DNA of 64,000 nt, from contig JAUHZY010000001.1 in the NCBI GenBank assembly GCA_030425825.1, forward strand, positions 372,001 to 436,000, in the 5' to 3' direction. This DNA comes from Alphaproteobacteria bacterium. Lineage in GTDB: Bacteria > Pseudomonadota > Alphaproteobacteria > JAUHZY01. This document shows, in pieces, positions 3,426 through 57,836 of this stretch. Position numbers and translations under genes: made by a program. Under the pieces are notes generated by a model that saw only the letters and a program-made list of their open reading frames with translations, searched no databases and was not told where the DNA came from. Positions within the stretch are counted from its first letter, which is position 1. Every line of letters starts with the position of its first letter.

Positions 3426-4146
3426 TTTCCGCTATTTGCGGGACGATGCTGTTTCCAAGAGCTGCGATACGACATCGCCATCTAAATACGTCCATTCTAC
3501 TGGATATCCCATAAGCCATTCTATGAACTCTGGATTTATTTTTCCAGTCTTCACTAATTTTTCGTGTCCATATTTTTTTATTATTTGAGCTTTGATAACT
3601 TCTGGCAGTCCTTGTTGCCTGCTGTTTGGGCCTCGCCCCCTCCAGTCGCACGACAGCGGGGTAGGCAATAATCCATATTCTTTCCCTTTTATGAATGGAT
3701 CCAAGGCGGGCAGCTGATATAATGTGCCATTCCGCGTCATACCCGATCTTCCAGAGATCCTTAAGCACAACGTCAAGTCCGCAGCTTCGTAATCTTGGGA
3801 CATTTTCAATGATGGCGTATTTTGGTTGGCACTCTTTAATAAGTCTTGCGAATTCTGACCATAGTCCGCTTCTTTCACCTGCAATCCCCGCACCCTTGCC
3901 AGCTTGCGATATATCTTGGCAGGGGAACCCACCACAGATGACATCAATTTCTTTAATACCTGCATTTTCCAACTCCTTTTTATTTAATTTTGTGACGTCT
4001 TCAAAAATAGGAGTGTTATGCCAGTGCTTTTTCAAGACAGCTTGTGCGTAAGGTTCAATTTCACAGAATGCGACAGTCCTCATGCCTGCGCGCTCTAGCC
4101 CAAGTGAAAACCCACCAATACCAGAAAATAAGTCTAAGACTTTCAT
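3211..4146 (-). pseudogene. DNA (cytosine-5)-methyltransferase, damaged (two compensating frame changes, missing recognition region)
   Basis: Residues 1-163 are a good C5 methyltransferase: motif I DLFSGIGGFSLGLERAG, motif IV GGFPCQDIS with catalytic Cys76, ENV at 114-116 and motif VIII KRERIWI. From about 3687-3660 the homologous reading moves to another frame (YGLLPTPLSCDW ... NPEFIEWLMGYPVEWT), which is typical C5-MTase sequence. At about 3485-3474 it returns to the first frame for motif X (RIAALGNSIVPQIAEIIGR). The first frame stays open across the gap, but reads nonsense there. The usual target-recognition region between motifs VIII and IX is absent. The frame then runs about 200 nt past motif X, antisense to the 2790-3425 gene. 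I read it as a decaying prophage gene. Confidence 0.75.
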
Positions 4147-4360
4147 GATTCCCCCTGTTTTTGTTGTTCAAAAAGGGTAGGGTGATGGGGGTGTGAATGT
4201 AAATATGGTATGACTAGAAAAACCCCCTGATTCTTAAGGGTAGGTCACTGTGTAAGATTTGTGTCAAAAATATATTGAAAAAAGGTAAAATTGGGGTAAA
4301 TTTCGGCAAATTGGCATTTTGATGAGTTTCGCTAAATGGCGCAGAATATAAGGTGTAGAG

Positions 4361-30114: not shown

Positions 30115-30213
30115 ATCCTATCTTAATCTCGCACTTTATGATCTTTATGGGATATGGTGTTGACTAAATGGATATTTGTGGTATATTGCTTCTTCATTTT
30201 TAGAGAGGTAAAT

Positions 30214-32028
30214 ATGAAAGTTAATCGTTTTGGCGCGCTTGTATTGGGAAGTGTTTTTTCTTTTTTGTCTTTGCCTGTATTGTCACAGGTCAAGCCAGAT
30301 TTGCAAGACGACCTCACTGTTGATACAAGAAGTAATCAAGAAAAAGGCCTGAATAATGTTGTCGTAGATGTGTATGCTCAATACAAAACGCTTAAAGAAG
30401 ACACGCCATTTTTTCTTCAAAATGATTCTTTTTATATAGGTATTGAAAATAAAATGCCTAAAGAGGTTGATCTAAGAAAGTTGCGAGAAGCTTTCACAAA
30501 AAATCCACCTGCAAAACTTTCTTCTTTGAAAAAAGAGGTCTTAAATAATGTATCGCCAGATCATTATACTCTTTTATCCAAAGAAGGTTTGTTAGAGCCT
30601 TTCTTGAAAATGGATGCAAACAATATGGAGCGCATTTCTATTCTGCCTCCTGACCGTGTGTTTTCTGATTTTGTGCGCTATATTGATAACCCTTTCCCGC
30701 GTGTAGAAGGGTATGTTGTTGATGAATTGTTAAGAAGATCTTTCCAAGAGTTTGATCCAGATATAATGATTTTTTATAGACCAACGCTGTCTGATGAGAA
30801 GTTAAAAGAAAGAATTTCTGATAGCGTTTTTGTTTTATATGATCAAATTGTTAATTATCATTTATATGATCAAAATATTGTGCAAAAAACCATTCACAAT
30901 ATGGGGAAAGTAGCAGCGCATGAAGCAGTTTTGTTTGTAAACCATGTGCTTGACCATGCTGTTTTTACCGCAGGTGGCGGTGATACTTTAAAAGCCTCAA
31001 AAGATGTAAATCTTATGTCTAATTTAATGCATTCTATCGTCATGGGTGATGATGGTATTTATGCTGGTAATGCTTCCTATAAGGCACGTAAGCTTTCTGC
31101 TGTTGCAAGACTAAGTGCAGAAATGCCTGTTCCTGAGAGTGTTTCACAGGTGATTGCTTCTCGTTATCATGAAGCTTATACATCGTTTAATCCAGTTGAT
31201 GCTTTGAGCGATGTTTGGAATGACTTGGATCAGCAAAAGCGTTTGGATACAACAAGCTATTTTATGAGACAATTTGCCAAAGCATTGAAGTTGCCTTTTG
31301 CAGATAGTATTCATGCAATGGCTGTTCAAGGAACACAAAATGACTTTTTATCTAAGGACACCGGTCTTTTTCAAAGGCCAACTGGTGGGGCAATTACGAT
31401 TGCTCGTTGGTATACAACAGGAAAATCAAAAGAAAATAGGTTAAAAGGTGACTTAGAAAAGATTTTTTCAACAGCAACTTCTAATGGTTTGGTACACGCT
31501 TTTGTCGATGAAATGGGTGGTGTGTACAATACACTTTCGTCAAAACAAAAAGCACAAATGGATACGATATTATCAAAAGCGTATAAAGTTTATCATCAGC
31601 CACAGGAAAAAGCATTGAGCAGAAAAGAGAGGTCTTTTTTAAAGTCTCTTTTTAAAGAAACGGTTTTTCATAAACAACCTCTTTCAACGCAGATTGAAGC
31701 GGCTTTCTTTATGAAGCTAAGCTATCTTGCAGCACCCCAGCGTAATGTAGACTTTAGGTCTTCAAAAACCACAGGAAAACCAAATGAAGTGTCATTTGAA
31801 GAGAGAGATCGCTTTGGTATTAGAAGCTCAAACTATATGACGACAACAGGAATGCTTTATCATGAAAGCACATTACATAAAAATTTTTCATACCAGGTCA
31901 CAAAGAAAACAAATGCTAAGAACAGCGTTGCTGGCCCATTAAATGAGCATAAAAAATACCCGCAAGGCGATCAGCGGCCTGCCAATCAAGATCGTAAAGG
32001 CTGGAAGCTTAGGCATCGCCAGCGCTAG
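30214..32028 (+). CDS. Large secreted protein of unknown function
   Basis: A 604-aa protein. ATG30214 is preferred because GAGAGG is 7 nt upstream and the product then begins with a good signal peptide (MKVNRFGALVLGSVFSFLSL, cleavage near VLS-QV); the longer frame adds a hydrophobic leader unlike a start. The mature part is helical, with few Cys and no TM segment. It shows no protease or hydrolase motif I recognise. The C-terminal 80 residues become basic and Asn/Gly-rich (HKKYPQGDQRPANQDRKGW). Probably periplasmic or secreted; function unknown. It converges on the complex I subunit gene. Confidence 0.6.
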   Translation: MKVNRFGALVLGSVFSFLSLPVLSQVKPDLQDDLTVDTRSNQEKGLNNVVVDVYAQYKTLKEDTPFFLQNDSFYIGIENKMPKEVDLRKLREAFTKNPPAKLSSLKKEVLNNVSPDHYTLLSKEGLLEPFLKMDANNMERISILPPDRVFSDFVRYIDNPFPRVEGYVVDELLRRSFQEFDPDIMIFYRPTLSDEKLKERISDSVFVLYDQIVNYHLYDQNIVQKTIHNMGKVAAHEAVLFVNHVLDHAVFTAGGGDTLKASKDVNLMSNLMHSIVMGDDGIYAGNASYKARKLSAVARLSAEMPVPESVSQVIASRYHEAYTSFNPVDALSDVWNDLDQQKRLDTTSYFMRQFAKALKLPFADSIHAMAVQGTQNDFLSKDTGLFQRPTGGAITIARWYTTGKSKENRLKGDLEKIFSTATSNGLVHAFVDEMGGVYNTLSSKQKAQMDTILSKAYKVYHQPQEKALSRKERSFLKSLFKETVFHKQPLSTQIEAAFFMKLSYLAAPQRNVDFRSSKTTGKPNEVSFEERDRFGIRSSNYMTTTGMLYHESTLHKNFSYQVTKKTNAKNSVAGPLNEHKKYPQGDQRPANQDRKGWKLRHRQR

Positions 32029-39409: not shown

Positions 39410-39862
39410 TTAGGTTTGTGTCTTCACGCCGCCATAAAGCGTATCACCCATAAGGTATTTCTTTAAATTGTCATTGTCAGAGCTTGTTTCTTCTGCAACC
39501 AGTCTGTTGACAGATTCTGCCCGTACCATGGAGGAAAACTTACCATTTTTTGTTAAAGGAAGGTGGCGGATGTTTTTTAGGCGCATGACTTGGACAATTT
39601 TACTTGGTTTCATCCCTTCTTTCCCTGTGACAGGGTTTTCTTGCATAATTTCTTCAATGGTTGTTTCATCATTAATTTTATAAACGAACATTTGATAAAG
39701 AAGATCTTTGCGCGTGACCAGGCCCACAACTTTTTTGTTTTTTGTCACGGCAATAGCACTGTGACCTTTCCCCAAAAACCAAGGTAGAATTGAGACAACT
39801 TTTGTACCTACCTCGACACAAGAATTATGACAAACAACAGCGTTGGTATTCACTTTTTTCAT
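39410..39862 (-). CDS. Two-CBS-domain protein 1 of the island
   Basis: A 150-aa protein. ATG39862 has AAGGAG 8 nt upstream, so the in-frame ATG at 39892 is not used. Two CBS motifs are visible: VVSILPWFLGKGHSAIAVT..KVVGLVTRKDLL and VQVMRLKNIRHLPLTKNGKFSSMVRAESV. Tandem CBS domains bind adenosyl ligands (AMP, ATP, SAM) and regulate partners. It shares the pattern WF(L/F)..(G/E)..(S/M)AIAV and the domain order with the CBS proteins at 47624 and 48243. It is stand-alone, with no catalytic domain. Confidence 0.85.
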   Translation of the reverse strand: MKKVNTNAVVCHNSCVEVGTKVVSILPWFLGKGHSAIAVTKNKKVVGLVTRKDLLYQMFVYKINDETTIEEIMQENPVTGKEGMKPSKIVQVMRLKNIRHLPLTKNGKFSSMVRAESVNRLVAEETSSDNDNLKKYLMGDTLYGGVKTQT

Positions 39863-39995
39863 GATAGTCTCCTTTTCAGTTCTTAATAACATGTCAGAAA
39901 CAATGAAGTGTCACGCTAACACAGCTTCATTAAAAAGTCAATTATATTAGTGACTTAGTCTATTTCGGTGTATGTTGTCAGCTTTCTGGCATATA

Positions 39996-40024
39996 TTGTG
40001 GTGTTATCAGATCTATGGTATAAT
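39996..40024 (+). promoter_or_regulatory. Extended -10 promoter before the 23-aa peptide
   Basis: TTGTGG (39996-40001), a 17-bp spacer and TATAAT (40019-40024), preceded by TGG to make an extended -10 (TGGTATAAT). It lies about 16 bp before ATG40040 and also drives the 489-aa gene. The same TGnTATAAT form recurs across this island. Confidence 0.6.
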
Positions 40025-40039
40025 TGGAGAACATAAAAA

Positions 40040-40111
40040 ATGTCTGAAATTGAAAAGGTGAAACGTATCCCTTATCAAGAGTCTTTGGACAAAATATGGG
40101 AAAATAAATGA
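40040..40111 (+). CDS. 23-aa leader or duplicated N-terminus of the downstream gene
   Basis: ATG40040 encodes MSEIEKVKRIPYQESLDKIW followed by ENK and a TGA at 40109-40111. The segment PYQESLDKIWEN is clearly homologous to residues 8-19 of the 489-aa protein that starts 63 nt later (PYKQSLETIWEN). It is short and has a weak ribosome site. It is either a remnant of a partial tandem duplication of the gene's start, or a small translated leader. The similarity makes it more than chance. Confidence 0.5.
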   Translation: MSEIEKVKRIPYQESLDKIWENK

Positions 40112-40174
40112 GCCAGGTATTATAATTAGCTTACCATCACAAGGCCGTTAAAAAACACATAAAAGGCACATAAT

Positions 40175-41644
40175 ATGACAGAAGAAATAACAGATCCTTA
40201 TAAACAGTCATTAGAGACAATATGGGAAAACGATGAAGTTAGGTATGCTCAAAACATAGAAAACTGTAGAGATTTTTATGATGCATTAGAAGTCGAAGTA
40301 AAAAGACAGGCTGCTTTGAAAATGCGTAAAGAGCCTGTTACGGACAGTAAATTTCAAGAAATACTCAAAGAGCATGCTGTGCACCTTCCTTTCTTAAATG
40401 ACCCAAAACGTCAAGAAAGCTTCAATGCCATGATTGCTGAAATTGAAGGCGCAGATATTCGCCTCGCAAAAGACGAAGATGCCGCATTAGAGGTATTACA
40501 AGAAGGTGTTTCTCAAATTGACGGTTTTATGGACTATCAAAGCGTTATGAATGTTGATTATGTGCGCCTACATGATGTTTTCTTAGATATTGGCAGAACA
40601 GTTGATGCTGATGGCCTTATGCAGGATAGAAAAGCTTTTGGCGGCCAACCCAAAGATCTTACAAAGCGTGTTGATGAGTGGAAAATTCATGTTGCTGAGA
40701 ATATATTAAAAAAGAATGATCATATGTGGCGAGAAGAAGGTGATAAAGAACCCATCAATCTGACATATGAGAAGTTGCAAGAAATCAAAGAAAAAATGGA
40801 TGCTTATGATCAAGCGCAGGGAAATGAGTTTTCTTCTTTTGAGAAGTTAAACCTAGATATTATGAAGCCCGAATATTTTGAGTATAATATTGATCATATC
40901 AAAGCTGTTTTTCACGACATTGATCAGCGTAACGGCACAAATTTGTTGGAGGCGTCTGGCCTGAAAGATGTAACGATTGAACAATTGCAAGACAATCCAG
41001 CGCTTGCTTTTGAAAAACGTAATGGCTTGTTTGATCTTCACCACAGCATTCATGGTGTGGAATCAGAAAAAGAACATAGAATGATGATGTCGCCAGATAC
41101 AAAATGGTTATACGCATTGGCAGAGCATGCAAAAACGGATCCAGATGCTGAGAAGCTATACAAAGACTTAATGAAGCACGGCGCCAAGCGTGCAGATAAT
41201 GGCATGGGCGAAGGTGTTAAAGGGCTAGGGTCAATGATCTTGCTTTTTGGTGGTGTTGCTAAAATGTTTGGTTCTGCTACATCTCAAAACCAAGAAGAGG
41301 GCGTTGCTTTAGGCGCTGGAATGACGGCGGCTGGAATATTTGGTCTTGTGAAGACGATTCGTGGAAGCCGTAGGATCCAAGAAAAAGACCTTGAAAACAA
41401 AAGAGAGCAGCTAGAACTTCTTCTGCAAGATAGTAATATGCAAGTTTTTTCACATCCTATGATGGAATCTGTACAATATATGGATCGTGCGATTAAAAAA
41501 TATAAAGATCAAATTGGCTATGAAGAAAATTCTAGTGATAATAAAGGCTTTTTAGAAGGGGTCTTTAACAAAAAGAATGAAGATAACTTAGGCGGTCCAG
41601 AAAAGCCTGATGTGATTATTCACAGCCCCAACAACTCTCGTTAA
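40175..41644 (+). CDS. Unknown 489-aa protein with a C-terminal two-TM hairpin
   Basis: A 489-aa, mostly helical acidic protein starting MTEEITDPYKQSLETIWEN. Residues 1-340 are soluble and coiled-coil-like (YEKLQEIKEKMDAYDQ, LYKDLMKHGAKRADNG). Two adjacent hydrophobic segments follow at about residues 350-390 (GLGSMILLFGGVAKMFG and GAGMTAAGIFGLVK), then a charged tail ending VIIHSPNNSR. I recognise no domain. The order, soluble head then hairpin then tail, suggests a membrane-associated or pore-inserting protein. It follows the duplicated 23-aa leader in the CBS/giant island. Confidence 0.55.
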   Translation: MTEEITDPYKQSLETIWENDEVRYAQNIENCRDFYDALEVEVKRQAALKMRKEPVTDSKFQEILKEHAVHLPFLNDPKRQESFNAMIAEIEGADIRLAKDEDAALEVLQEGVSQIDGFMDYQSVMNVDYVRLHDVFLDIGRTVDADGLMQDRKAFGGQPKDLTKRVDEWKIHVAENILKKNDHMWREEGDKEPINLTYEKLQEIKEKMDAYDQAQGNEFSSFEKLNLDIMKPEYFEYNIDHIKAVFHDIDQRNGTNLLEASGLKDVTIEQLQDNPALAFEKRNGLFDLHHSIHGVESEKEHRMMMSPDTKWLYALAEHAKTDPDAEKLYKDLMKHGAKRADNGMGEGVKGLGSMILLFGGVAKMFGSATSQNQEEGVALGAGMTAAGIFGLVKTIRGSRRIQEKDLENKREQLELLLQDSNMQVFSHPMMESVQYMDRAIKKYKDQIGYEENSSDNKGFLEGVFNKKNEDNLGGPEKPDVIIHSPNNSR

Positions 41645-41783
41645 TGACGGTTTGTCACTTATTATACCATCATCGCTCAATCCGTTTCGTGCGGCATACA
41701 GAATCCTGTAAAGACAGAAGCCGTCATTATGAAAGTGTGATGTATGATATTTTGGTCGGTTGTATATAAAGCGGCCGTATGTT

Positions 41784-44456
41784 TTACATCTCAAGGCTTA
41801 TGCCTACTTTGAATTGCGTGCTTGGCGCAACTGTCACCTGGTCTACTGAGAAGTTATTATATTGTGCTGCTTGAGCAGGGTTGTATGTATAACCTGTTGA
41901 CAGAGATGCTTCGAAGAAGGGCTTAATCACAGCTCCTTGTCGTGCGTGTTGATACCCACGTGAATCACCTCTCAGTGCTGGTCCAATATCATATCCAACA
42001 CGTCCAAAGGCTGTCATGTTGTTGCCAATACTTGTTTGCCCGAGGCCAAAAACGTCACCATCGCGTCGCATATTATATGTTGCGCCAACATTAATAGCTA
42101 AATGACCTTGATTATAAAATCCTGTTGCGCCAACAGTTTTAAGTCTTGTTTCATCCAGCATAAAAGAGTTGGTGCCACTATTGCCTGTAAATTCATAGTT
42201 TTCTAACCCTTTTCCTGTATTTACTGTTCCGCCGAAAGCGATACCTTTCTTAGGAATTGTTGAAACAACCCCTAACCCTAAAGTCCCTTGATTAGCACCA
42301 TAAAAGCCACTTGACATTGTAAACCCAAAAGCGGCTTGTGCAAAAATAGATGTTTTGTCTGAAAGGTGATAAGAGGGTGTTGTCAGAGCAACGTTTATCT
42401 GTGTTTCGCGCCTATTAGAAACATCGCTGCCAGGGGTGGTCTGATCAAAAGATTCCTGAGTATTGCTATCACCAATGGCTTCACCATTAGACATGTTGGC
42501 AAGAGATCTGTTGCTTGTCCCGACAGATAGATTTGCTTGAACAATGCTGACATCATCACTGTTAACGATTTTATCGAAAGGCTTTTTCTTTTTCTTCTTC
42601 TTTGGTTTTTTGTCCTCAGACTTTACAGGCTCGGTTTTTGTTTGTGCAACTTGCGCTATAAAGCCGGCATTGTTATTAGCATCTTCCTTTTCTTCTGTAG
42701 GAGGAACGTTATCTACAGGTGCTTCAGGTTTTTGCTCTACAGGTTCTGGCGTTTCAGCAGTTTGTTGGGCTTGAGCCTCTTTTTCTTGTTTCGCTTGGGC
42801 GGCAGCAACGGCTGCTTCAAGTTTTTTACTTTCACTTTCCAGCTGTGAGGTTGGAGCTACTTTTACTGTGCCAGGTTTAAGAGGAGCAGAAGATTCAGTT
42901 TGGATTTGCTGCGGTTGGATAGGGTCTAGTTTAATAGGATCTTTTTGTACAAGCGCTTCTTCAGCCACAGGGCTTTCAATAGCAGGCGTTGGTTCTGTGA
43001 TTTCTACTTGTGCAGCTTGCTCAGCAGCAGCTTCTGCTTTTGCAAGCGCTTCTTCTTTTAATGCAGCAGCTTCTGCTTTTGCAGCTTCACCATGTTCTTT
43101 TAGGGCAGCATCAAATCCTGCAATACCACCAGCTTGACCAGCAGGACGGCGTTTTTTTGTGATGCCAGGTTTTTTGTATGTTCTGTAATCATATGGGTCT
43201 AAAACATTACCATTACGGTCCAAGATATCTTCTGTTGGTCCGTTGATGAAGTCTTGCTTCATTGATGGAATGCGTTTGTTTTCCATAAATTGTGTTTGCC
43301 CTGCGCGTGCTGCCTTTTCTTCAAGCCTGTCACTGAAAAGAGCAGGGGCGCTACCATCAACTCTAGGAGACAGCTCAACGCTTGTCTGATAAATTTCCTT
43401 ATATTTTTGCGTGCGTTCTTGGACAACATCAAGGTAAGCCTGTGCTTCTGCTGTGTTGCCTGCCGCCGCAAGCTCTTTGGCATGCAAAAGATGCCCTTGC
43501 AAAACTTGTAGGTCATTTAGCTTATTATCTGCGCGGTGAAGCGACTGTTCTGTTTTCACACCAAATGCGAAGATATCTTTGGCAGGAATGTCTCTTTCAA
43601 ATTCAATTTGCTGCCCAACACTTGATAGGTCTTGTGCTTTTGGTGCGGGTACAACGCTGAAGCCGTCTTTCGTGTTCTTAACTTCGATTTGTAAGCGGTT
43701 TTGTATTTGTTTATCATTTCTTAGGGGCGCGTATTTAGGGTCTGTTTGCAGAACCGTTTGCATTTGCGGTGGCATACTTGCCAAATCATCAAGCTCGGCA
43801 AGTGGAACACCATTAACAGTGTAGCCAACTTCACCTGCTAAATCATGAAACAGGTCGCGCATGAGGTCGTTATATGCCGTGAGAGCAGCCTCATCACTTT
43901 GATCTGCAGGGTTTAAGTTTGCTTTTGCGTAATCAATTGATTGTTGTTTATAGTAGGCTGCCGCTTGTTCAAGGGGTGTGCCTGAATATGTGTGACTGCC
44001 AGCACTTTTTGCAGCTTGATATAGCTTTTCTTGCTCGGGCAGCGTGCTGCGCATGCCGTCAATATTTTGACTTAATGTATTAATGTCCTTTGAAAACCCT
44101 TCCAAAGCTTTGTCAAAAGAGGCAAGGTTGTGAACATTGATGGCTTTAACTGCTTGGTGAACTTGCGCTTCGCTGCGAAGGCCGCTGACTTGTGGATCCG
44201 AATTAATAATGACATCTGTTGGTTGAGAAAAAGATGTTTTTGATTCACCATTTTGTCCTAAATAAGAATGCTCTAATGTGCGGTGAAGACTGACCTGTTG
44301 ATTTAAATGGTTTATGTGTTCTTGTCGGACTTGTTCAAAGCGCGCTTGCGCTGCTTCGATGTCATTGTTCTGAAGATAGTATTGAAAAACAGGGTCTTTA
44401 ATATCTTTTCCAGCTTCTTTAAGCTGTTCTAACGGTGTTTTGTCGTTTCCTGCCAT
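41784..44456 (-). CDS. Giant protein A (890 aa): helical head, Ala/Glu-rich middle, beta-rich C-terminus
   Basis: The start MAGNDKTPLEQLKEAGKDIK has AAAGGAG 7 nt upstream. Helical, Gln/Asp-rich residues 1-430 are followed by an Ala/Glu-rich stretch (about 445-495, with ALKEHGEAAKAEAAALKEEA) and a Pro/Gln linker. A poly-Lys patch (KKPKKKKKKKPFDK, about 625-640) precedes about 240 residues of alternating beta-strand pattern (FAQAAFGFTMSSGFYGANQG, AFGRVGYDIGPALRG, FFEASLSTGYTYN) ending KVGISLEM. No signal peptide, TM helix or catalytic motif is seen. It is homologous to the 991-aa neighbour. A barrel-like end without an export signal is odd; function unknown. Confidence 0.65.
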   Translation of the reverse strand: MAGNDKTPLEQLKEAGKDIKDPVFQYYLQNNDIEAAQARFEQVRQEHINHLNQQVSLHRTLEHSYLGQNGESKTSFSQPTDVIINSDPQVSGLRSEAQVHQAVKAINVHNLASFDKALEGFSKDINTLSQNIDGMRSTLPEQEKLYQAAKSAGSHTYSGTPLEQAAAYYKQQSIDYAKANLNPADQSDEAALTAYNDLMRDLFHDLAGEVGYTVNGVPLAELDDLASMPPQMQTVLQTDPKYAPLRNDKQIQNRLQIEVKNTKDGFSVVPAPKAQDLSSVGQQIEFERDIPAKDIFAFGVKTEQSLHRADNKLNDLQVLQGHLLHAKELAAAGNTAEAQAYLDVVQERTQKYKEIYQTSVELSPRVDGSAPALFSDRLEEKAARAGQTQFMENKRIPSMKQDFINGPTEDILDRNGNVLDPYDYRTYKKPGITKKRRPAGQAGGIAGFDAALKEHGEAAKAEAAALKEEALAKAEAAAEQAAQVEITEPTPAIESPVAEEALVQKDPIKLDPIQPQQIQTESSAPLKPGTVKVAPTSQLESESKKLEAAVAAAQAKQEKEAQAQQTAETPEPVEQKPEAPVDNVPPTEEKEDANNNAGFIAQVAQTKTEPVKSEDKKPKKKKKKKPFDKIVNSDDVSIVQANLSVGTSNRSLANMSNGEAIGDSNTQESFDQTTPGSDVSNRRETQINVALTTPSYHLSDKTSIFAQAAFGFTMSSGFYGANQGTLGLGVVSTIPKKGIAFGGTVNTGKGLENYEFTGNSGTNSFMLDETRLKTVGATGFYNQGHLAINVGATYNMRRDGDVFGLGQTSIGNNMTAFGRVGYDIGPALRGDSRGYQHARQGAVIKPFFEASLSTGYTYNPAQAAQYNNFSVDQVTVAPSTQFKVGISLEM

Positions 44457-44489
44457 TTTTGGGCTCCTTTATTTTAAGGACTTTCTATC

Positions 44490-44498
44490 ATTGTATCA
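44490..44498 (-). promoter_or_regulatory. Extended -10 of giant protein A
   Basis: On the minus strand TGATACAAT (TG-A-TACAAT) lies about 34 bp upstream of the 44456 start. The 20-bp stretch just after it (AGTCCTTAAAATAAAGGAG) is also found upstream of giant B, so the whole regulatory leader is conserved between the two paralogs. Confidence 0.55.
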
Positions 44499-44545
44499 TA
44501 AAAATGGTAAAAATAGAAGAGGGGCACGCAATGGTCGTGTTCTAT

Positions 44546-47521
44546 CTAAATATGAATCATAACGCCAGCTTGAAGTGATATTCTGGATGAAACATCAACA
44601 GATGTGTTGTTGGGCATAGCTTCTTGGTTTTTGTTTATTTTATCGGCGAGGTAATCCTTGTATTCACTATCACTATTTTGGAATGTCGATGTATAACCAG
44701 AGCGGAGCTGTGCGCTGACAAAAGGTGAGACAGAGATGCCTTTTTGGTATGTTGCATTATAAGAAACACGTCCAAATGCTGTTATTGTATTTCCTGAATG
44801 TACTTTTTCTCCTGCTAAACTTCCGCCTTGAATATTGTAAGAAGCTTTCCCCATGAAAGCTAATCTGTTCATGCTGTGGGATCCCATGACGCCAATATCA
44901 AGAGATGTGTTTTTTAGTTCTAAGTTTTGTGCAGGCGAAAATTTTTCTGTTGTTGAACCAAGAAACCCACCAGCAGTAAAACTTTGTGTGCCATGGTTGA
45001 AAACTTGTGAAGCGCCAGCACCTACGTAATATGAGTGTGAAGAATAGATTGTATTATTGTTTGTATCGTGCGTATTTAGAATATGCCCTCCAACCATCCA
45101 TTGAGCGTACGCACCACTTGACAGCTTGGGCATGAAATCAAGCTGGAAAAGGGATGTTGTTCCACCTAGGTCTTTTGAGGCACTGTTCTCGCCAGAAGAA
45201 TATGAAGAAGATTGTTGGCTTGTGCCTGCTCCAAAATCAACGTTGATAATGTCTTGATCGTTTTTGTTGTCTTGTATGCGCTTACTTTTAAAGGTGCTGA
45301 CTTCCTGGATGTTTTCTGCAGCCTCCGATCTAATTTCGCTCATTTGTTTAATATCGTTCTGAATAGCACTCATGGCAGCGTTGCGCTCAGGGCTTGACGG
45401 TAGTTTTTGGATTTCTTTTCTTGCTTCTCTTTGCTCAGTGATTTTCTTATTAAGAGCTTCTTTAAGCTCTTTATGTTTTTCCACACCGGCTTGTTTTTGT
45501 AGTTGTTTTTCTAATCTTTTGAGATTTTTCTGTTCCACTTCTAGCTTTTTTTTGTGAAATCTAACGCGGTCAAGAGCATAAACCTTACTTTGCCCAGATT
45601 TCTTTTCGTATGACTTCTGAGAACGTTGAAGCATTTTTTGTTCTCTGGCGATTCTTTCTTTTTGTTGAATAACTTGAGGGTGATCAGAGAAGTCTTTTTT
45701 ATTTTTCGCGTTTTCTTTTTGATATACTTTAGCTTCCTCAGCCTCTTTTCTAAAAGTATCAGCGTAAAGCGTATAAATAATATCACCGTGCTGTTTTGCT
45801 TCACCGGAAGCGCCATTTTGTGGTGTTTCGTTTAGTGTCGGCACATTCCCAAAAAGAGCAGGTTTTGTTTGAGGTGTTTCAGTTTCTTGCTGTGATGCTT
45901 CTTGTATTTTGTTAAGGGCTTGCTCAATACGTTCTTTTTCTTCAGATTCTTTTTGCTTAAGGGTTTCAGCCTCAGTTTTTGCAGCTTCACCGTGCTCTTT
46001 AAGGGCAGCTTCAAAAGCTGCTACACCACCTTTTTGGTTTTCACCTCTGATTTTTGGACGACCATATCTATGTGCATTTTTTGACCCAGCATCTAAAGGA
46101 AGACCATCTTCACCCAGGACAATGTTACCATCCTGATCAACAATATCTTTTTTAGGGCCATCTAAGAATGCACCCAATCCACCGCTGGAGCGGTTTTCAG
46201 GATTCAGTTTTCCTGCAGCATATCTTGTTGCGGCGTCACGCTGTGCTCTTGGAGAATCGGCTGAATTATCAAATACCATATCAATAGACAAGTCATCAGA
46301 AACAGGAGAGGCTGCAAGATAGCCATTATTATATGTTTTATAATAAGACTTTTCGACATCAAGATAAGCTTGTGCTTCGGCTGTTTTACCTTCTATGGCA
46401 AGTTGCTGTGCTTTCAATAGGTGAGCTTGCAGGCGTTCCATATCATGCAGCTTTGCAGATCCACTTGCAATTCCTGCCTTTGTGCCATTTGCAAATGCAC
46501 TTGCATCATTAACTGGACACCAATAGCTGAAGTCGCGTGTCTCAGCGACACTGTTTGCATCTTGTTTTTTACCATCTGGTACAACTTCCATCAGTTGTCC
46601 TTCGTGGTTTATGACTTTCAGTCCAAAACGGTTTTGGAATTTCTTGTCATAAAGTAGTAGAGAGTATTCAGGGTTTGTCTGTAGTTCTGCTTGCATTGCG
46701 GCAGGCATTTTTGTGAGGTCGTCCAAATCTGCCAGTGGTGTGCCATCTATTGTGCCTCCAAACTCGCCAGCTAAACTTTGGAATTGGGCGCGTAATTCAT
46801 TATTGTATGCTTTGATCGCAGCAATATTTGAGGCTGATTCAGGAACGCCAAGCTCAGACTTTGCGTAAGCGATTGCAAAGTTATTATAGTACTCACCAGC
46901 TTGCTTCAAGGCTTCTGGGTCGCGTGCGCCTTCACGGAACCCGGATGATTTTGGCATTTCTGTATCTACGTAATAAGGGTTTCGATATTTACCTTCTTGC
47001 GCTTGTTCAACAGTGATTCCTGCACCTTGTTCTTTTGAAGACGTTGCTGTGATCGCTGCAGCAATAAAAGTATCATGTTCTGGCAGCGTATTACGCATCC
47101 CATCCAGGTTGTCACGCAGTGTTGCCATATCGCGTTCAAGGTTTTCAAGCACTCTGTTGAAAGAGGAAGGGTCATTCACATCAATTTTATCAAGCTCACG
47201 TTTATAGGTGTGGTCGCTGTCAATGCCGCTGATGCGTGCATCTGGGTTTACAAGAAAATAGTTTGGATCAGCAAGCCCTTGGTAAGATTGTGCTTCATAA
47301 TTTGGGAACGCTGCGTCGCGCCTTAAGTATGTGTTGGCATACACGACGTTGTTATTAACTTGTTGTTGTAAGAATTGGGGATATTCGATCTTGATTTCTT
47401 CAAGGCGGCTCGATGCTTCTTCAATTTGGTTGTGCTTTAAATAGTGTTGGAATAAAGGGTCTTTGATATCTTTTCCAGCTTCTTTAAGCTTTTCTAAAGG
47501 CGTTTTATCATTTTCTGCCAT
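44546..47521 (-). CDS. Giant protein B (991 aa), paralog of giant A
   Basis: The start MAENDKTPLEKLKEAGKDIK has AAAGGAG just upstream. It shares the giant A plan: KDP(L/V)FQ(H/Y)YL near the N-terminus, a region with KAQQLAIEGKTAEAQAYLDV, the AAFEAALKEHGEAAKTEAE block, then a long coiled coil (about residues 575-740, rich in Lys/Glu/Gln, for example RIAREQKMLQRSQKSYEKKS). The C-terminal ~250 residues look like beta-strands (YYVGAGASQVFNHGTQSFTA, NTITAFGRVSYNAT, PFVSAQLRSGYTSTF) ending LQAGVMIHI. The coiled coil is an insertion relative to giant A. No signal peptide. Function unknown. Confidence 0.65.
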   Translation of the reverse strand: MAENDKTPLEKLKEAGKDIKDPLFQHYLKHNQIEEASSRLEEIKIEYPQFLQQQVNNNVVYANTYLRRDAAFPNYEAQSYQGLADPNYFLVNPDARISGIDSDHTYKRELDKIDVNDPSSFNRVLENLERDMATLRDNLDGMRNTLPEHDTFIAAAITATSSKEQGAGITVEQAQEGKYRNPYYVDTEMPKSSGFREGARDPEALKQAGEYYNNFAIAYAKSELGVPESASNIAAIKAYNNELRAQFQSLAGEFGGTIDGTPLADLDDLTKMPAAMQAELQTNPEYSLLLYDKKFQNRFGLKVINHEGQLMEVVPDGKKQDANSVAETRDFSYWCPVNDASAFANGTKAGIASGSAKLHDMERLQAHLLKAQQLAIEGKTAEAQAYLDVEKSYYKTYNNGYLAASPVSDDLSIDMVFDNSADSPRAQRDAATRYAAGKLNPENRSSGGLGAFLDGPKKDIVDQDGNIVLGEDGLPLDAGSKNAHRYGRPKIRGENQKGGVAAFEAALKEHGEAAKTEAETLKQKESEEKERIEQALNKIQEASQQETETPQTKPALFGNVPTLNETPQNGASGEAKQHGDIIYTLYADTFRKEAEEAKVYQKENAKNKKDFSDHPQVIQQKERIAREQKMLQRSQKSYEKKSGQSKVYALDRVRFHKKKLEVEQKNLKRLEKQLQKQAGVEKHKELKEALNKKITEQREARKEIQKLPSSPERNAAMSAIQNDIKQMSEIRSEAAENIQEVSTFKSKRIQDNKNDQDIINVDFGAGTSQQSSSYSSGENSASKDLGGTTSLFQLDFMPKLSSGAYAQWMVGGHILNTHDTNNNTIYSSHSYYVGAGASQVFNHGTQSFTAGGFLGSTTEKFSPAQNLELKNTSLDIGVMGSHSMNRLAFMGKASYNIQGGSLAGEKVHSGNTITAFGRVSYNATYQKGISVSPFVSAQLRSGYTSTFQNSDSEYKDYLADKINKNQEAMPNNTSVDVSSRISLQAGVMIHI

Positions 47522-47551
47522 TTGGTCTCCTTTATTTTAAGGACTGACCTG

Positions 47552-47560
47552 ATTATAACA
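47552..47560 (-). promoter_or_regulatory. Extended -10 of giant protein B
   Basis: The minus strand reads TGTTATAAT (TG-T-TATAAT), a consensus extended -10, about 31 bp upstream of the 47521 start. The -35 region (TTCTTT) is weak, as is common for extended -10 promoters. Confidence 0.6.
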
Positions 47561-47592
47561 TAAAAATGGCTAGAAAAGAATGGGTAGGGGAA

Positions 47593-47615
47593 GCCCTGAG
47601 AGAATTTCTCAGGGC
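47593..47615 (-). terminator. Hairpin terminator of CBS protein 2
   Basis: GCCCTGAGA (47593-47601) pairs with TCTCAGGGC (47607-47615), with a G-T pair inside and a three-base loop. It lies 9 nt past the stop at 47624 on the minus strand. The downstream T content (TTCTTTTC) is moderate rather than a clean T-run. Confidence 0.55.
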
Positions 47616-47623
47616 GCGGTTAC

Positions 47624-48100
47624 TTATTTAGGGACAATAGTGTTGCTGTAAGCGTGGCCGAGGCCAAGAAAGAATTGCTTTGTTTCTTCTTGGTCTTTGC
47701 GTGCTTTATCAGCAGCTTCTTTCAATATAATAAGATCATGTGTGACACCAATAAAGTTGCCATTTTCATCTGTAACGGGAATATGACGCACATGTTTCTC
47801 ATCAATAAAGTCAACCATGTCAGATGCGTTTCCTTGCCCCTCATGAACAATAGGGTCGCGTGTCATGACATCATCGACGGTTGTTTTGTTATTGATAAGG
47901 CCATCATAGTAGTTATGAATAATATCATTTCGTGAAATGATACCAATCACCTCACCTTTCCTAATAACCGCAATTGCTAGCCTATTCTCGTTGAAGAACC
48001 ACGGAATGACTTGTTTGACAGGCGTTCCTGTGGGAACAGCAACATTATTTTGTAAGATTGAACAGTGTGTATCGTTGTGTGTTAAGTCTTTAAACATCAT
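47624..48100 (-). CDS. Two-CBS-domain protein 2 of the island
   Basis: A 158-aa protein with AGGAGG 7 nt before its ATG. Its first CBS motif is VKQVIPWFFNENRLAIAVIRKGEVIGIISRNDIIHNYYDG, and the second is VDDVMTRDPIVHEG..VRHIPVTDENGNFIGVTHDLIIL. The VMTRDPIV and GIISRNDI segments are diagnostic of CBS pairs. A C-terminal helix (EAADKARKDQEETKQFFLGLG) ends in a FFLG.. motif also present in CBS protein 3. The two downstream CBS genes are close paralogs (the TGTP...IPWFF, AIAV and FFLG elements are shared). It lies directly upstream of giant B on the same strand. Confidence 0.87.
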   Translation of the reverse strand: MMFKDLTHNDTHCSILQNNVAVPTGTPVKQVIPWFFNENRLAIAVIRKGEVIGIISRNDIIHNYYDGLINNKTTVDDVMTRDPIVHEGQGNASDMVDFIDEKHVRHIPVTDENGNFIGVTHDLIILKEAADKARKDQEETKQFFLGLGHAYSNTIVPK

Positions 48101-48142
48101 GATAAACCTCCTTGCCTATAAGAACTATAGGACTCCTTTTAT

Positions 48143-48151
48143 ATTATACCA
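48143..48151 (-). promoter_or_regulatory. Extended -10 of CBS protein 2
   Basis: The minus strand has TGGTATAAT (TG-G-TATAAT), about 43 bp upstream of ATG48100, matching the extended -10 form seen at giants A and B and at CBS protein 3. Confidence 0.55.
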
Positions 48152-48191
48152 CATTTCCTTTTAAGATACAAATTTGAGAGGGATCAGATTT

Positions 48192-48220
48192 AAAAGAAAA
48201 GGGCTTGCGTTTGCAAGCCC
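48192..48220 (-). terminator. Rho-independent terminator of CBS protein 3
   Basis: GGGCTTGC (48201-48208) and GCAAGCCC (48213-48220) form a perfect 8-bp stem with a 4-base loop. On the minus strand this is followed by TTTTCTTTTA, a typical intrinsic terminator 22 nt past the stop of the 48243-48704 gene. Confidence 0.85.
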
Positions 48221-48242
48221 TAACTCTTTGTTTTAATGTTGA

Positions 48243-48704
48243 TTAAAGGGGTTGGCAGCTATAGTCACCACCAAGAAAAAACCTTTTCATTTCATCGCCT
48301 TCACAGCGTAGCTTCTTTAAGGCAGCTTTGAGGACAATAGTGTCACTGGTGACGCCAACAAATTCATCTTGTTCGTTAAGAACAGGGACATGTCGAATCT
48401 CAGCTGCGTCCAAAAACTTTCTAATATTTCTTACGGTTCTTTTACCTTTAAAGACAGTGGGGTTTTTGGTCATAACCTGTTCGACTGTCATGCGTGGTGT
48501 CAGTATACCTGCATAATAATGTTTAATAATATCATTTCTGGTAATAATACCAGCAATGTTATCGCCGTCCATCACGGCAATTGCCATGCGGCCATCTTCA
48601 AAAAACCAAGGCACAATTTCTTCAACTGGCGTGCCTGTCGAAACAGCGACCTTTTTACGAATCAAAGGACATTTTACGCGTCTGTTGTTAAATTGCTTAA
48701 TCAT
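48243..48704 (-). CDS. Two-CBS-domain protein 3 of the island
   Basis: A 153-aa protein. ATG48704 is chosen for its AAAGGAAAG leader; the 48743 in-frame ATG lies in the promoter. CBS motifs: VEEIVPWFFEDGRMAIAVMDGDNIAGIITRNDIIKHYYAG, and VEQVMTKNPTVFKG..IRHVPVLNEQDEFVGVTSDTIVLKAAL. It is nearly collinear with CBS protein 2 (TGTPVE.IVPWFF, ITRNDIIKHYY and the terminal FFLGG), so the two are recent duplicates. Tandem CBS proteins of this size usually regulate another protein by adenosine-nucleotide binding; the partner here is unknown. Confidence 0.87.
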   Translation of the reverse strand: MIKQFNNRRVKCPLIRKKVAVSTGTPVEEIVPWFFEDGRMAIAVMDGDNIAGIITRNDIIKHYYAGILTPRMTVEQVMTKNPTVFKGKRTVRNIRKFLDAAEIRHVPVLNEQDEFVGVTSDTIVLKAALKKLRCEGDEMKRFFLGGDYSCQPL

Positions 48705-48741: not shown

Positions 48742-48750
48742 ATTATAACA
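48742..48750 (-). promoter_or_regulatory. Extended -10 of CBS protein 3
   Basis: The minus strand reads TGTTATAAT, identical to the giant B element, about 38 bp upstream of ATG48704. Confidence 0.6.
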
Positions 48751-48810
48751 CATGTTCACAAAAAAGTAAATTAATTCAATGGATTAATATTTTCTATTCG
48801 CTGGGACCCC

Positions 48811-50057: not shown

Positions 50058-51842
50058 ATGGAAAATTGGGAGGATCTTTCGCCTCAAGAGAGGCGCGATG
50101 AGAAAAGACGCTCTCATGACGAGAAAATAGCATGGGATTCTGCTTATAATGATATGCGTAATCATGATGTCGCCCAAGCAATAGAAGAATCGCAAGCAGA
50201 ACAAGTAGATCAAAGAAGTTATTTCGATCCTGCTGGCGATACTATTGATGTTGTTGAATCAATAAAAAAACCAAGTGTTTGGAGAAACATTAATAATGTA
50301 GACTGGACATCTGTTGTTGAGTTTGCCCTTTCTGAAGGATCAATTTTTAAAAAGCACACTTTCCCTGTGATGGATGTTGATGGGAAAGAGTTACAAAATG
50401 AAGATTATCCTGTAAAGGTGACGCGTGCTGTTAAAGATCCTGGGAAAACAAAAGTTAAGCCAAACAAATCAATATATGCACGTGATGCTGAAACACGCTT
50501 TATGCGGTTTGGTCCATCGTCAAGAGCGCGTTTTTTAAATCAATTTATTGATCCTGAACAAAAAAAATTAACGATAAGAGGGCGGAAAGAAATATTGCTT
50601 TTTGAGCGTGAAAGTGCGTATCGCTTAAATAATTCTGAAAGTAAGTTATTCAAAAACCTTGTGACCCAAGCAACAGAGGAATCACTTCGCGCCGTACTAA
50701 CCAATCTTGATGATGATTATGATTCTTTGAATGGTATGTATAGAGAAAACAAGCGTGCTCTTGTCAATATGGACGGAGACGGGGAAGACTTTAAGAACGA
50801 ACTGGCAATGCATATTGATTATGTTGTTGGTTTTGTTTTTCCAGAATCTGTGAGCCCTTATCTTGAAAACGTGAAAGCGACACATGTGATGAATAACATG
50901 AATACGCCTTCAACATATTTTTTTAAAGAGCTTCAAAAATACATGAAAAGATCCATTGGAAAGGTGACACGTGGAAATATGTATGATGTCGCGTTTGACG
51001 CTGTTCTTGCAAAGCAGTTCCAGGTGTTAAGTGATATTTCTTTACAGCAAGATTTTTACAAAAAGAAATTAGATGTTGCGCTTTCTAAAGCAAAGAAAAA
51101 CAAACATGTTTGGAATGGTATAGATGCCTCTGAACGTTTGGAAGCTGCCAATAAAATACTGAAAAGCTTTAATGTTGGTGGGAAGTTGAAAAACTATTTC
51201 TTTGACTTTGATATGGTGCAAAAAACAGGATTCAAATCAGTCGAAGTAGCTGGCAATGATCAACAAGAAAGAAAGACAAATATTATTTATCTTGCATCAA
51301 AAGATTTAGAGTCTGTTGGCAATGTTTACGAAGCAATCTATCATCACCTTGTTCCAGAAGGATTTGAAGAAAATAAAGACTTATTTGCCATTGTTCATAA
51401 AGACTATGCTTTGGGGGATGGTGTCGACACAGAAAATATCATGAGGTCGTATCTATCTGGTGTGGACTTACATCAATTTGTAAAGTCTGACTCAAAAGGC
51501 CCTAAAGAAAAGACCCAAAAACCAAAAGACCCAGAACAAAAAAAGCCAGAAGTAATTGAGCTAGACCTAAAAGAGCGCGAAGAGCCTCGCGGCGACCAGC
51601 GTGATGAAGGTGGTTTCTTGGGGAAGGCAAAGAAGCTTTGGAAAAAGCTTTTTATTTTCACGGCACTTTCGACGGGTGTGACAAGCGCGTTTTCATCGAC
51701 ACCTCAGCAGATTGCGTTGCCGTCAGGTGATGGCGTTCATGCAAATGCGAACTTGGTAAAGATGGTTGAAGAGTATGCGTCTAGTCCTCGACAGCATTCC
51801 ACAGCTTTTGTTCAAACCCATACAGCTTCGCGGCAGATCTAG
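50058..51842 (+). CDS. Unknown 594-aa protein with a C-terminal hydrophobic segment
   Basis: The start MENWEDLSPQERRDEKRRSH follows ACAGGGAAG. The protein is highly charged and soluble for most of its length: FALSEGSIFKKHTFPVMDVD, RGRKEILLFERESAYRLNNS, ALSKAKKNKHVWNGIDASER. A Pro/Lys/Glu linker (about 470-520) precedes a hydrophobic segment (KLFIFTALSTGVTSAFSS, about 535-552). No family or catalytic motif is recognised. Its 3' end overlaps argG antisense by 62 bp. A helical cargo domain with a hydrophobic C-terminal patch resembles effector or membrane-associated proteins, but this is speculative. Confidence 0.55.
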   Translation: MENWEDLSPQERRDEKRRSHDEKIAWDSAYNDMRNHDVAQAIEESQAEQVDQRSYFDPAGDTIDVVESIKKPSVWRNINNVDWTSVVEFALSEGSIFKKHTFPVMDVDGKELQNEDYPVKVTRAVKDPGKTKVKPNKSIYARDAETRFMRFGPSSRARFLNQFIDPEQKKLTIRGRKEILLFERESAYRLNNSESKLFKNLVTQATEESLRAVLTNLDDDYDSLNGMYRENKRALVNMDGDGEDFKNELAMHIDYVVGFVFPESVSPYLENVKATHVMNNMNTPSTYFFKELQKYMKRSIGKVTRGNMYDVAFDAVLAKQFQVLSDISLQQDFYKKKLDVALSKAKKNKHVWNGIDASERLEAANKILKSFNVGGKLKNYFFDFDMVQKTGFKSVEVAGNDQQERKTNIIYLASKDLESVGNVYEAIYHHLVPEGFEENKDLFAIVHKDYALGDGVDTENIMRSYLSGVDLHQFVKSDSKGPKEKTQKPKDPEQKKPEVIELDLKEREEPRGDQRDEGGFLGKAKKLWKKLFIFTALSTGVTSAFSSTPQQIALPSGDGVHANANLVKMVEEYASSPRQHSTAFVQTHTASRQI

Positions 51843-53134: not shown

Positions 53135-53944
53135 CTACTCTTCTTTGATGGGCAAATAGATTTTATCGTCTTTTCTAACTTGATAAGGCGGGACAATGAC
53201 GTATTTTTTACCTGCGGCGAGTCCTTTTTCAACTTCTTGTTTCTTTGCGGTGTCTTCTTGCTCAAGCAGGAAGTCATAATCGCCATCTTCTGGTTTATCT
53301 TCAAGTGTGTTGATGTCGTAATTTACATCCATTTCATACATGAAGGTATAATCAGGAACGCTGTGCGCATGCACGATGGGTGACTTGAGATACATTTTCC
53401 CGAACAAGCCATGAATTTTGCTGGCGCGGTTATAGTATTGCGTGATCCCTGTAAATTTCTTGGTGCCATACATTTCAAAGCTTGCAGCCTTTGTGTATGC
53501 AGCAATGCGTGGAATGTCGCGTCCATCACTGAAGTAACGCTGCAGGCTGAACAATGTAAACCCAAACCACGTTTCGCGATCAGCTGTTAGGCTGGATGTC
53601 GCCCCAGAAATAGGCACAAGATCCAGTTTTGACGATTCAATATCAGGGTCATTTTCAAAGTGATCAAACAGAGACGCTGGAATGTCTGCACGTTTTCTTG
53701 CAAACCCAAAAACAGCCGATTGTGACAAAACACAGTTTACATAAACCCAGTTCGGCATTTTCAAATCATTAAAGGCAACGGCATTTGCCAATAAATAGGC
53801 ACGGTGAAAGTTAACGTTTTCGGATTTGGTATCGATAATAACAGGATCAAGGCCGAACGGCTTTAAGTTAAGCGATTCTTTCAATGAAGAGTCTGTCGCG
53901 ATATATGGCACGTATCCTGCCGCTAATATTTTATCAAAACTCAT
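53135..53944 (-). CDS. Hypothetical protein (269 aa)
   Basis: Soluble-looking, starting MSFDKILAAGYVPYIATDSS. It contains LANAVAFNDLKMPNWVYVNC, DLVPISGATSSLTADRETWF and a C-terminal basic tail, KKYVIVPPYQVRKDDKIYLP. It has mixed alpha/beta predicted structure, no signal peptide and no motif I can assign. It stands alone between argG and the ArsC-like gene, transcribed in the same direction as argG. Function unknown. Confidence 0.55.
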   Translation of the reverse strand: MSFDKILAAGYVPYIATDSSLKESLNLKPFGLDPVIIDTKSENVNFHRAYLLANAVAFNDLKMPNWVYVNCVLSQSAVFGFARKRADIPASLFDHFENDPDIESSKLDLVPISGATSSLTADRETWFGFTLFSLQRYFSDGRDIPRIAAYTKAASFEMYGTKKFTGITQYYNRASKIHGLFGKMYLKSPIVHAHSVPDYTFMYEMDVNYDINTLEDKPEDGDYDFLLEQEDTAKKQEVEKGLAAGKKYVIVPPYQVRKDDKIYLPIKEE

Positions 53945-56240: not shown

Positions 56241-57836
56241 CTAAATTTGTTTTGCCCGGTCCTGTGCTTTGTTGCTAACGTCGTTTGCTGGGGTGCTTGC
56301 ACCCGTTTTTATAAGCTGAGAGAGTAAAGCTCCCATATTTTGAACAGCTCTATTTTCAGTGTTTTCTTTTTCAGGGGCATGCTTCACTTCTTCAAGTGAT
56401 TTATTGAGTTCTTCTACGATTGGTCCAGCATTTTTTTCTTGTGCAAGCTGTTCTTCAAAAGCACGGATGACATTTTCTCTAAAATAAGGGCGTTTTTTAG
56501 CAAGATCAGCAAGGGTACGTACGACACCTTTTCGCCACTCTTGGCTATTTGTTTTGTCATCCTTTAAATCTTCTACTAAACGATCAACCTTTGCTTGATA
56601 AGGTGTATTCTTTTCAGCTTCAGTAGCATTCAACCCTTTTGTTAAAAGCGCTTTCTCTATTTCATCCAGCAGGCTAGAGCTGCTTTTTGCGTAACGTGTA
56701 GCTTTATCCATCATCTCTTTTATCGCTTCTTGTCTGTAATCAGGGTAAGAAACCGCAAAGTTGACAAGATGTTGAAGACTTTCTTTTGACCAATTTACAA
56801 TTGGGTAGCTTTCTTTAAATGAAAAGCGCAGATGTTTAAATTGATCATCCAGCACTTGCTTAAATTGTAAAGTTGTGGCGTTGAGTTTTTGGGGCCCTAA
56901 TACTTCTCTTAAAGCTGTCATGTTTTCTACATTTTTCTCGGTACTGGCATGATTTAAGAGTAGTTCAACCATTTCTTCTTTAAGGTGGGGGTAAAACTTG
57001 TTAAGGGTGGCAAGCTCTTTGATTGCATCTCTGCGGAATTTACCTTCTTTACGTTCTAAATCCCTTTTTTGCAGCTTGAATATCAGGGTATATATTTCTG
57101 GGTTATGCTTTTCTGATGGATCTAGGCCCATTTTTTTATTGAGACGCATGATGGATCGAATGATCTCGTTATTACTTGCCCATGTGTGTGAGTGATTTAT
57201 TTTTAATTCTTTTTCTAGATATTTTTTGAAGACATTCATCGCATCTGGTTTGATGTTTTCATCTTTGATAGCAAGGTCAATAATATTGCTGATAATGTTT
57301 AAAGACTGATGCTGACTGTTATTTTTGCTGTTAAGTCCCTCTTCATAAAATTTAAGGAGTTTTTCAGAGGTTACATTTGCGCTGTCTGCAGCCATTATAT
57401 AAATGTCACGGATGAATGGGAAATATGTTTTTTCTGTTTGATATAGTGAAGTCAGCTGTTCAAAACTTGGGTTGAGATTTTTTGTTCCTAAAAGCTCAAC
57501 AAGTGCTTGTTGACTCTCGTAACTCATGTGAGTCATTTTAAATGTTGGGACGCTTTTCATCAAAGTATCGCTGTATTCTTGATCTGGCCCATCAACAAGT
57601 GCTTTTTCGGTTACAAAAGAGAGAAGTTTACTCGGTAGTTTTGTGAAAGGAGGGTGAAATAAAAGAATAGCACTTCCCAAATCTTTCCAGCTTTTTGAAT
57701 CCAGCGTAATGTTTTCTAGTTTAGGGAGATTTTCTAGAAGCATTCCATAAAGTTCTTCCGCACGTTGTGGATTTTCTATTGCTTCTAATGTGCGGGTTGT
57801 TTGATCTACGAAATTTTCTTGGACATGTTTTGTCAT
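56241..57836 (-). CDS. Helical-repeat (HEAT/ARM-like) protein of 531 aa
   Basis: MTKHVQENFVDQTTRTLEAI starts an almost entirely alpha-helical protein. Repeats of a common form can be seen, such as FRRDAIKELATLNKFYPHLK, YRQEAIKEMMDKATRYAK and WRKGVVRTLADLAKKRPYFR, with the pattern R(K/R)xA(I/V)xxLxxLAxxxPxx. This resembles HEAT/ARM-like repeats that bind peptides or proteins. It has no TM or signal peptide. The 451-aa gene at 59724 carries the same repeat style (LRKEAVKTLGQIAIRSPLFH). The two flank the DedA fusion gene and are probably functionally linked to it. Confidence 0.6.
   Translation of the reverse strand: MTKHVQENFVDQTTRTLEAIENPQRAEELYGMLLENLPKLENITLDSKSWKDLGSAILLFHPPFTKLPSKLLSFVTEKALVDGPDQEYSDTLMKSVPTFKMTHMSYESQQALVELLGTKNLNPSFEQLTSLYQTEKTYFPFIRDIYIMAADSANVTSEKLLKFYEEGLNSKNNSQHQSLNIISNIIDLAIKDENIKPDAMNVFKKYLEKELKINHSHTWASNNEIIRSIMRLNKKMGLDPSEKHNPEIYTLIFKLQKRDLERKEGKFRRDAIKELATLNKFYPHLKEEMVELLLNHASTEKNVENMTALREVLGPQKLNATTLQFKQVLDDQFKHLRFSFKESYPIVNWSKESLQHLVNFAVSYPDYRQEAIKEMMDKATRYAKSSSSLLDEIEKALLTKGLNATEAEKNTPYQAKVDRLVEDLKDDKTNSQEWRKGVVRTLADLAKKRPYFRENVIRAFEEQLAQEKNAGPIVEELNKSLEEVKHAPEKENTENRAVQNMGALLSQLIKTGASTPANDVSNKAQDRAKQI

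Follow-up and report, generated by a model that had tools for sequence, protein, structure and literature searches.

Classical (type Va) autotransporters combine a large N-terminal region, a linker, and a C-terminal β-domain that carries a signal for the β-barrel assembly machinery (BAM). Type Va barrels are 12-stranded (PMC6555100). The normal path of barrel virulence factors and of autotransporters leads across the inner membrane through Sec, after which BAM inserts them (PMC12757748). Here we compare with such systems an island of genes at positions 39410-48704 of a 64,000-nucleotide stretch (the window; contig C2, 372001-436000) from an alphaproteobacterial assembly of 1.95 Mb in 11 contigs. 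The island encodes two large paralogous proteins (giants A and B), a 489-aa protein, and three short proteins with paired CBS domains, and all open reading frames (ORFs) listed in its initial annotation are present at the positions and lengths given there. With a probability of about 50%, we read it as a lineage-specific envelope/export island of separately transcribed genes, in which giants that end in a barrel but lack a Sec signal are under translational control.

The giants share the overall layout of a classical autotransporter. Each would consist of (i) a mostly helical N-terminal half of about 450-500 aa, (ii) a charged or coiled linker, and (iii) a C-terminal region of about 240-260 aa, which is most likely an outer-membrane β-barrel of about 10 strands with a BAM-type β-signal. 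Their genes, C-terminal domains, and leader elements have the following window positions:

41784-44456, minus strand: giant A, 890 aa
44546-47521, minus strand: giant B, 991 aa
41784-42569, minus strand: C-terminal β-barrel-like domain of giant A, aa 630-890, ending KVGISLEM
44546-45268, minus strand: C-terminal β-barrel-like domain of giant B, aa 752-991, ending QAGVMIHI, with a PF03797 match
44464-44482, minus strand: leader hairpin AGTCCTTAAAATAAAGGAG over the Shine-Dalgarno (SD) sequence of giant A
47527-47545, minus strand: leader hairpin AGTCCTTAAAATAAAGGAG over the SD sequence of giant B, lengthened by GGTC/GACC

Giants A and B align over their whole length, at 30% identity and E 6e-100, which bears out their initial annotation as paralogs, and they are, judged by sequence, an old pair. 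No relative of either was found in 57 related genomes (protein search), in 384 other genomes of the class (profile search), outside their own genome in a draw of 398 genomes of the phylum (the window's own included), or in the species-genome contigs, viral contigs, and plasmids searched; within the searched genome set, their genome is the sole representative of its order. As whole proteins, neither the giants, nor the 489-aa protein, nor a 594-aa protein encoded next to the island matched a Pfam, NCBIfam, or PHROGs family above cut-off. This supports the earlier label of an undescribed island. A search of PDB sequences for a structure by homology gave nothing credible, the antibody-chain matches at E 0.3 or worse being noise. 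The giants are an orphan family that probably ends in outer-membrane barrels.

Three lines of sequence evidence point to a barrel at the C-terminus. First, the last 240 aa of giant B match PF03797 weakly, at 26.2 bits against a cut-off of 26, in a partial alignment covering profile positions 11-156 of 255; a search of the whole genome with PF03797 gave 26.4 bits (E 4e-6) for giant B. Among 14 control genomes, with matches listed to E 10, 11 had no PF03797 match even at that value, and none of the remaining three is Gram-positive or archaeal. The C-termini of the two giants are homologous (E 2e-6). Second, strands of alternating hydrophobicity exceed those of shuffled sequences in both C-termini (z 2.4 and 2.0). 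For comparison, z is 3.0 for an OmpA-like protein encoded in this genome and about 0 for the giants' own N-terminal halves. Third, both proteins terminate in an exact BAM β-signal, defined as ζ-x-G-x-x-φ-x-φ with φ an aromatic or hydrophobic residue (PMC10945584). Only the G is identical between the two termini, and a scan of 198 sampled proteins, with an extra terminal residue permitted, matched a single 145-aa protein besides the giants. The genome encodes one Omp85/BamA protein (249 bits). AlphaFold predicts the C-terminus as a series of strands, at a predicted local distance difference test (pLDDT) score of 40; the strand count is about 10 by eye, 9 in this model, and 8-9 by the alternation score. 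The PF03797 match, the β-signal, and the alternation make an outer-membrane β-barrel the likely fold, and the earlier guess of a membrane-inserting system gains support from the resemblance.

The absent Sec signal is the most surprising feature of the giants, because barrel proteins normally use Sec before BAM. Their initial description as lacking a signal peptide holds: within the first ~58 residues, 19-mer hydropathy peaks at −0.43 and −0.51, so that no stretch is hydrophobic, and the open frames exceed the annotated genes by only 4-5 codons. Lacking this signal, the giants would not be exported by the textbook path of Sec followed by BAM; the precursor would exit the cytoplasm by a non-Sec route before inserting in an outer membrane. 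In this respect the giants differ from classical autotransporters, as they do in an N-terminal half that is predicted, in a low-confidence AlphaFold model, to be mostly helical rather than a β-helix, in the count of about 10 strands by eye instead of 12, and in the β-domain of giant A, which has no family match. With barrels that reach mitochondria, such as Acinetobacter OmpA and Neisseria PorB, the giants would share a barrel with a β-signal that assembly machineries could recognize; those proteins, however, are of the porin or OmpA type, exported by Sec and largely delivered by vesicles, whereas the giants are ~900-aa proteins without a Sec signal. At the position of a signal peptide, the first 22 residues are 91% identical between the giants, compared with 39% in the remaining N-terminal half, and synonymous-codon likeness is 74% there, compared with 46% elsewhere in that half (44% expected). 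Such a conserved start would fit a targeting signal.

Production of the giants would probably be gated at translation, by a hairpin over the SD sequence and under extended −10 promoters. The two leaders had been called nearly identical, and they do have in common CCATTTTTATG(T/A)TA(T/C)AAT and an identical 19-nt element, AGTCCTTAAAATAAAGGAG, of which the genome has no further copy at up to 2 mismatches. In the predicted fold, UCCUU pairs with AAGGA of the ribosome-binding site, with a leader folding energy of −7.1 kcal/mol (z −1.8) for giant A and −11.2 kcal/mol (z −3.2) for giant B, and the SD sequence is left unpaired with a probability of 0.04-0.06. The hairpin suggests translational control of the giants. 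RNA thermometers and other leader hairpins that sequester the SD sequence likewise pair its AAGGA with UCCUU in a short stem-loop shortly before the start codon; the giants' leader differs from RNA thermometers in pairing without a fourU motif, and it has no match in Rfam.

Several observations weigh against giants that are outer-membrane barrels under translational control. Both models from AlphaFold are of poor quality (pLDDT 39 and 40), and structure searches with the low-confidence model returned only weak, tied matches, led by secretins at a TM-score of about 0.15. The C-terminus of giant A alone matches no Pfam family, and the giants end in M and I, where an aromatic residue is usual. 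How BAM would receive a substrate that lacks a Sec signal is difficult to account for, so the C-terminal domain could instead be a soluble β-domain. As for the leader, occlusion of the SD sequence ranks the giants 8th and 9th of 96 sampled genes, which is not rare, and gene conversion of a promoter-leader-start block may be an alternative explanation for the identity of starts and leaders. Matches from Foldseek and VIA-align 2 (secretins, phage coat proteins, and others; Z under 4) were rejected as not interpretable.

The missing Sec signal, the low confidence of the C-terminal domain models, the unmatched C-terminus of giant A, and the nonaromatic last residues would all suit soluble cytoplasmic proteins, in which the glycine-rich β region forms no barrel, and the β-signal and the autotransporter match are coincidences of composition. 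We consider this somewhat unlikely: the Pfam match of giant B lies above cut-off with clean non-diderm controls, alternation exceeds shuffles in both paralogs, and the terminal motif is kept in both even though only its G is identical.

A different reading starts from the near-identical first 22 residues and takes them as a secretion signal. The giants would then be effectors that leave the producing cell in a single step, for instance through a type IV system, and their barrel would insert in the outer membrane of a target cell or in the mitochondrial outer membrane. A barrel-like domain without a Sec signal, the excess identity of the 22-aa start over the remaining N-terminal half, and the ability of bacterial β-barrels to reach mitochondria (PMC12757748) speak for it. 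So do VirB4/TrbE homologs, which lie off the main chromosome contig at C5:6040-6543 and C11:16468-17094, the C11 stretch also encoding a VirB10/TrbI-like gene and an OmpA-like barrel. Host contact is suggested by two large proteins with ankyrin repeats, at ~717-718 kb and ~671 kb of C2, which lack an obvious signal peptide and are possibly a link to host association. The type IV genes, however, reside on other contigs, one of them beside the TrbI/VirB10-like gene, and may belong to plain conjugation systems. Moreover, the same review sets barrel outer-membrane proteins apart from injected effectors (PMC12757748). On balance, we find effectors of this kind quite unlikely. An extension of the idea, in which the giants would be the first of a Sec-bypassing family of BAM-type barrels, with the 22-aa start as a one-step secretion signal, the SD hairpin as a switch, and insertion in a target membrane, strikes us as highly doubtful.

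The proposed island of separately transcribed genes also has to account for promoters of a common type. The elements concerned are as follows:

40016-40024, plus strand: extended −10 TGGTATAAT, upstream of a mini-ORF and the 489-aa gene
44490-44498, minus strand: extended −10 TGATACAAT of giant A, one mismatch to TGnTATAAT
47552-47560, minus strand: extended −10 TGTTATAAT of giant B
48143-48151, minus strand: extended −10 TGGTATAAT of CBS2
48742-48770, minus strand: promoter of CBS3, TTTACT-17-TATAAT, with TG preceding the −10
39912-39941, minus strand: promoter region of CBS1, in which 22/30 positions agree with the promoter of CBS3; its −10 is degenerate and reads TTAGCG instead of TATAAT
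47593-47615, minus strand: terminator-like hairpin GCCCTGAGA-AATTC-TCTCAGGGC with a poor T-run, between CBS2 and giant B, read directly
48200-48221, minus strand: terminator AGGGCTTGCAAACGCAAGCCCT-TTTCTTTT, between CBS3 and CBS2

The window contains eight TGnTATAAT sites, where shuffles predict 2.5, and the island has strict sites at 40016, 47552, 48143, and 48742. In a gene sample of 264 kb (the window plus 200 kb of flanking stretches; 24 kb is N, leaving 240 kb readable), a strict site lies within 130 bp upstream of the start in 3 of 205 crudely called genes, all three of them consecutive island genes. The clustering is real. Of the TGnTATAAT-type promoters first proposed, four are strict sites, and the one at 44490 has a mismatch. 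TGnTATAAT is, however, an ordinary strong σ70 element, and joint duplication of promoters and genes explains much of the clustering. An operon model was rejected on account of the separate promoters and of the hairpins between some genes, the hairpin between CBS2 and giant B being weaker than that between CBS3 and CBS2. The island genes look like single transcription units. An extra TGGTATAAT occurs at 41661-41669 (minus strand), where the 489-aa gene and the gene of giant A converge; it lies between their 3′ ends and points antisense to the 489-aa gene.

The CBS-pair proteins flank the larger genes of the island:

39410-39862, minus strand: CBS1, stand-alone CBS pair, 150 aa; Pfam CBS 41 bits; SD sequence and ATG at 39862; ORF open to 39892
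47624-48100, minus strand: CBS2, stand-alone CBS pair, 158 aa; Pfam CBS 50.8 bits
48243-48704, minus strand: CBS3, stand-alone CBS pair, 153 aa; Pfam CBS 50.7 bits; start placed by SD position; ORF open to 48743

Each of the three contains two PF00571 stretches in tandem and, at 41 to 51 bits, scores above the cut-off of the Pfam CBS family, confirming that these are stand-alone proteins of two CBS domains; the coordinates first given for the genes also hold, apart from the starts of the outer two, which are probably 39862 and 48704. CBS2 and CBS3 are 43% identical, and CBS1 is 26-27% identical to both. Of the 13 CBS domains found genome-wide, those outside CBS1-3 lie within ORFs of 297-508 aa, leaving these three as the only short stand-alone CBS proteins. 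With the stand-alone CBS pairs of Proteobacteria they share (i) a length of ~150 aa with two CBS domains and (ii) an RHxP motif in the second domain (IRHLP, VRHIP, and IRHVP). A VxxGTxVxxIxPWF segment and an N-terminal Cys, present in all three, are the island's own. Further, the aligned first domains keep [ST]xxD (TRKD, SRND, and TRND), which we take to be a ligand motif, whereas the second domains have lost it. The relatives found in the searched genomes of the class are stand-alone CBS proteins of a generic kind, and their genes are placed among unrelated genes; two of these relatives were compared, and their 23-30% identity again sets the island's proteins apart. The CBS-pair proteins of the island are local, diverging paralogs that would bind adenosine-type ligands through the motif of the first domain.

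These properties bear on the proposal, a guess from the outset, that the island is one nucleotide-gated system, a functional unit in which CBS pairs respond to adenosine nucleotides and regulate both the giants and the 489-aa protein. The genes do lie close together, they have in common a promoter type that is rare nearby, all three stand-alone CBS genes of the genome are in the island, and their first domains retain the presumed ligand motif. Yet the only ties between the CBS genes and the giants are position and promoter type; the promoters are separate, with hairpins between some genes, TGnTATAAT is merely a good σ70 site, CBS1 has no TATAAT in its promoter region, and similar CBS genes occur elsewhere in unrelated surroundings. 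The single-system proposal was not borne out by these separate transcription units and generic relatives, and we give it very little credence.

The remaining gene of the island is preceded by a relic of itself:

40175-41644, plus strand: 489-aa orphan protein, with moderately hydrophobic segments at aa 350-368 and 377-395
40040-40111, plus strand: 23-codon mini-ORF, which repeats in truncated form the N-terminal end of the 489-aa protein (PYQESLDKIWEN / PYKQSLETIWEN)

The 489-aa protein was not found in the 384 other class genomes, viral contigs, and phages searched, and a phage origin for its gene was rejected on the lack of viral matches. Of the two-transmembrane hairpin first ascribed to it, the two segments are present, but they are only moderately hydrophobic (hydropathy 1.35 and 1.58). 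The mini-ORF aligns with its N-terminus at z 7.5 against shuffles, and the promoter reported at 40019, which exists at 40016, lies in front of this relic. An N-terminal signal common to the giants and the 489-aa protein was rejected, as its z of 2.5 falls below the 3.1-3.6 of unrelated proteins; one common to the giants and the 594-aa protein was also rejected, the latter not being among the top scores.

The giants, the three CBS genes, the mini-ORF, and the promoters are all duplicated, and the island is therefore a product of local duplication. Its codon usage and its GC content at third codon positions fall inside the genome's own range, which makes a recent foreign origin unlikely; a phage or plasmid origin was rejected on this native codon usage and on the lack of matches to the giants in viral contigs and plasmids. 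The TldD protein of the genome is at most 49% identical to that of any named alphaproteobacterium among the matches returned, which places the genome on a deep branch within the alphaproteobacteria. The island is compact, native, built through local duplication, and lineage-specific. Prophage-like genes, including a portal protein (phrog_1216, 571 bits) and a virion structural protein, extend from C2:352001-372000 to about window position 4150, with a DNA methyltransferase among them at 3211-4146; those by the window's left edge are ~35 kb distant from the island. On the other side, the adjoining 594-aa orphan (50058-51842) has a hydrophobic segment near its C-terminus. Further sizeable proteins at 30154-32028, 53135-53944, 56241-57836, and 59724-61079 have no Pfam match at E 0.001, and a 3532-aa open frame lies to the right of the window (C2:497613-508211; 125613-136211 in the window frame).

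If the proposed reading is true, barrel-like proteins of ~900 aa without a Sec signal would mean either another route to the outer membrane or secreted effectors that bear a barrel. The island also shows gene sets built by duplication in lineages without close sequenced relatives, and it is a compact test case for the regulation of neighboring genes by CBS pairs.

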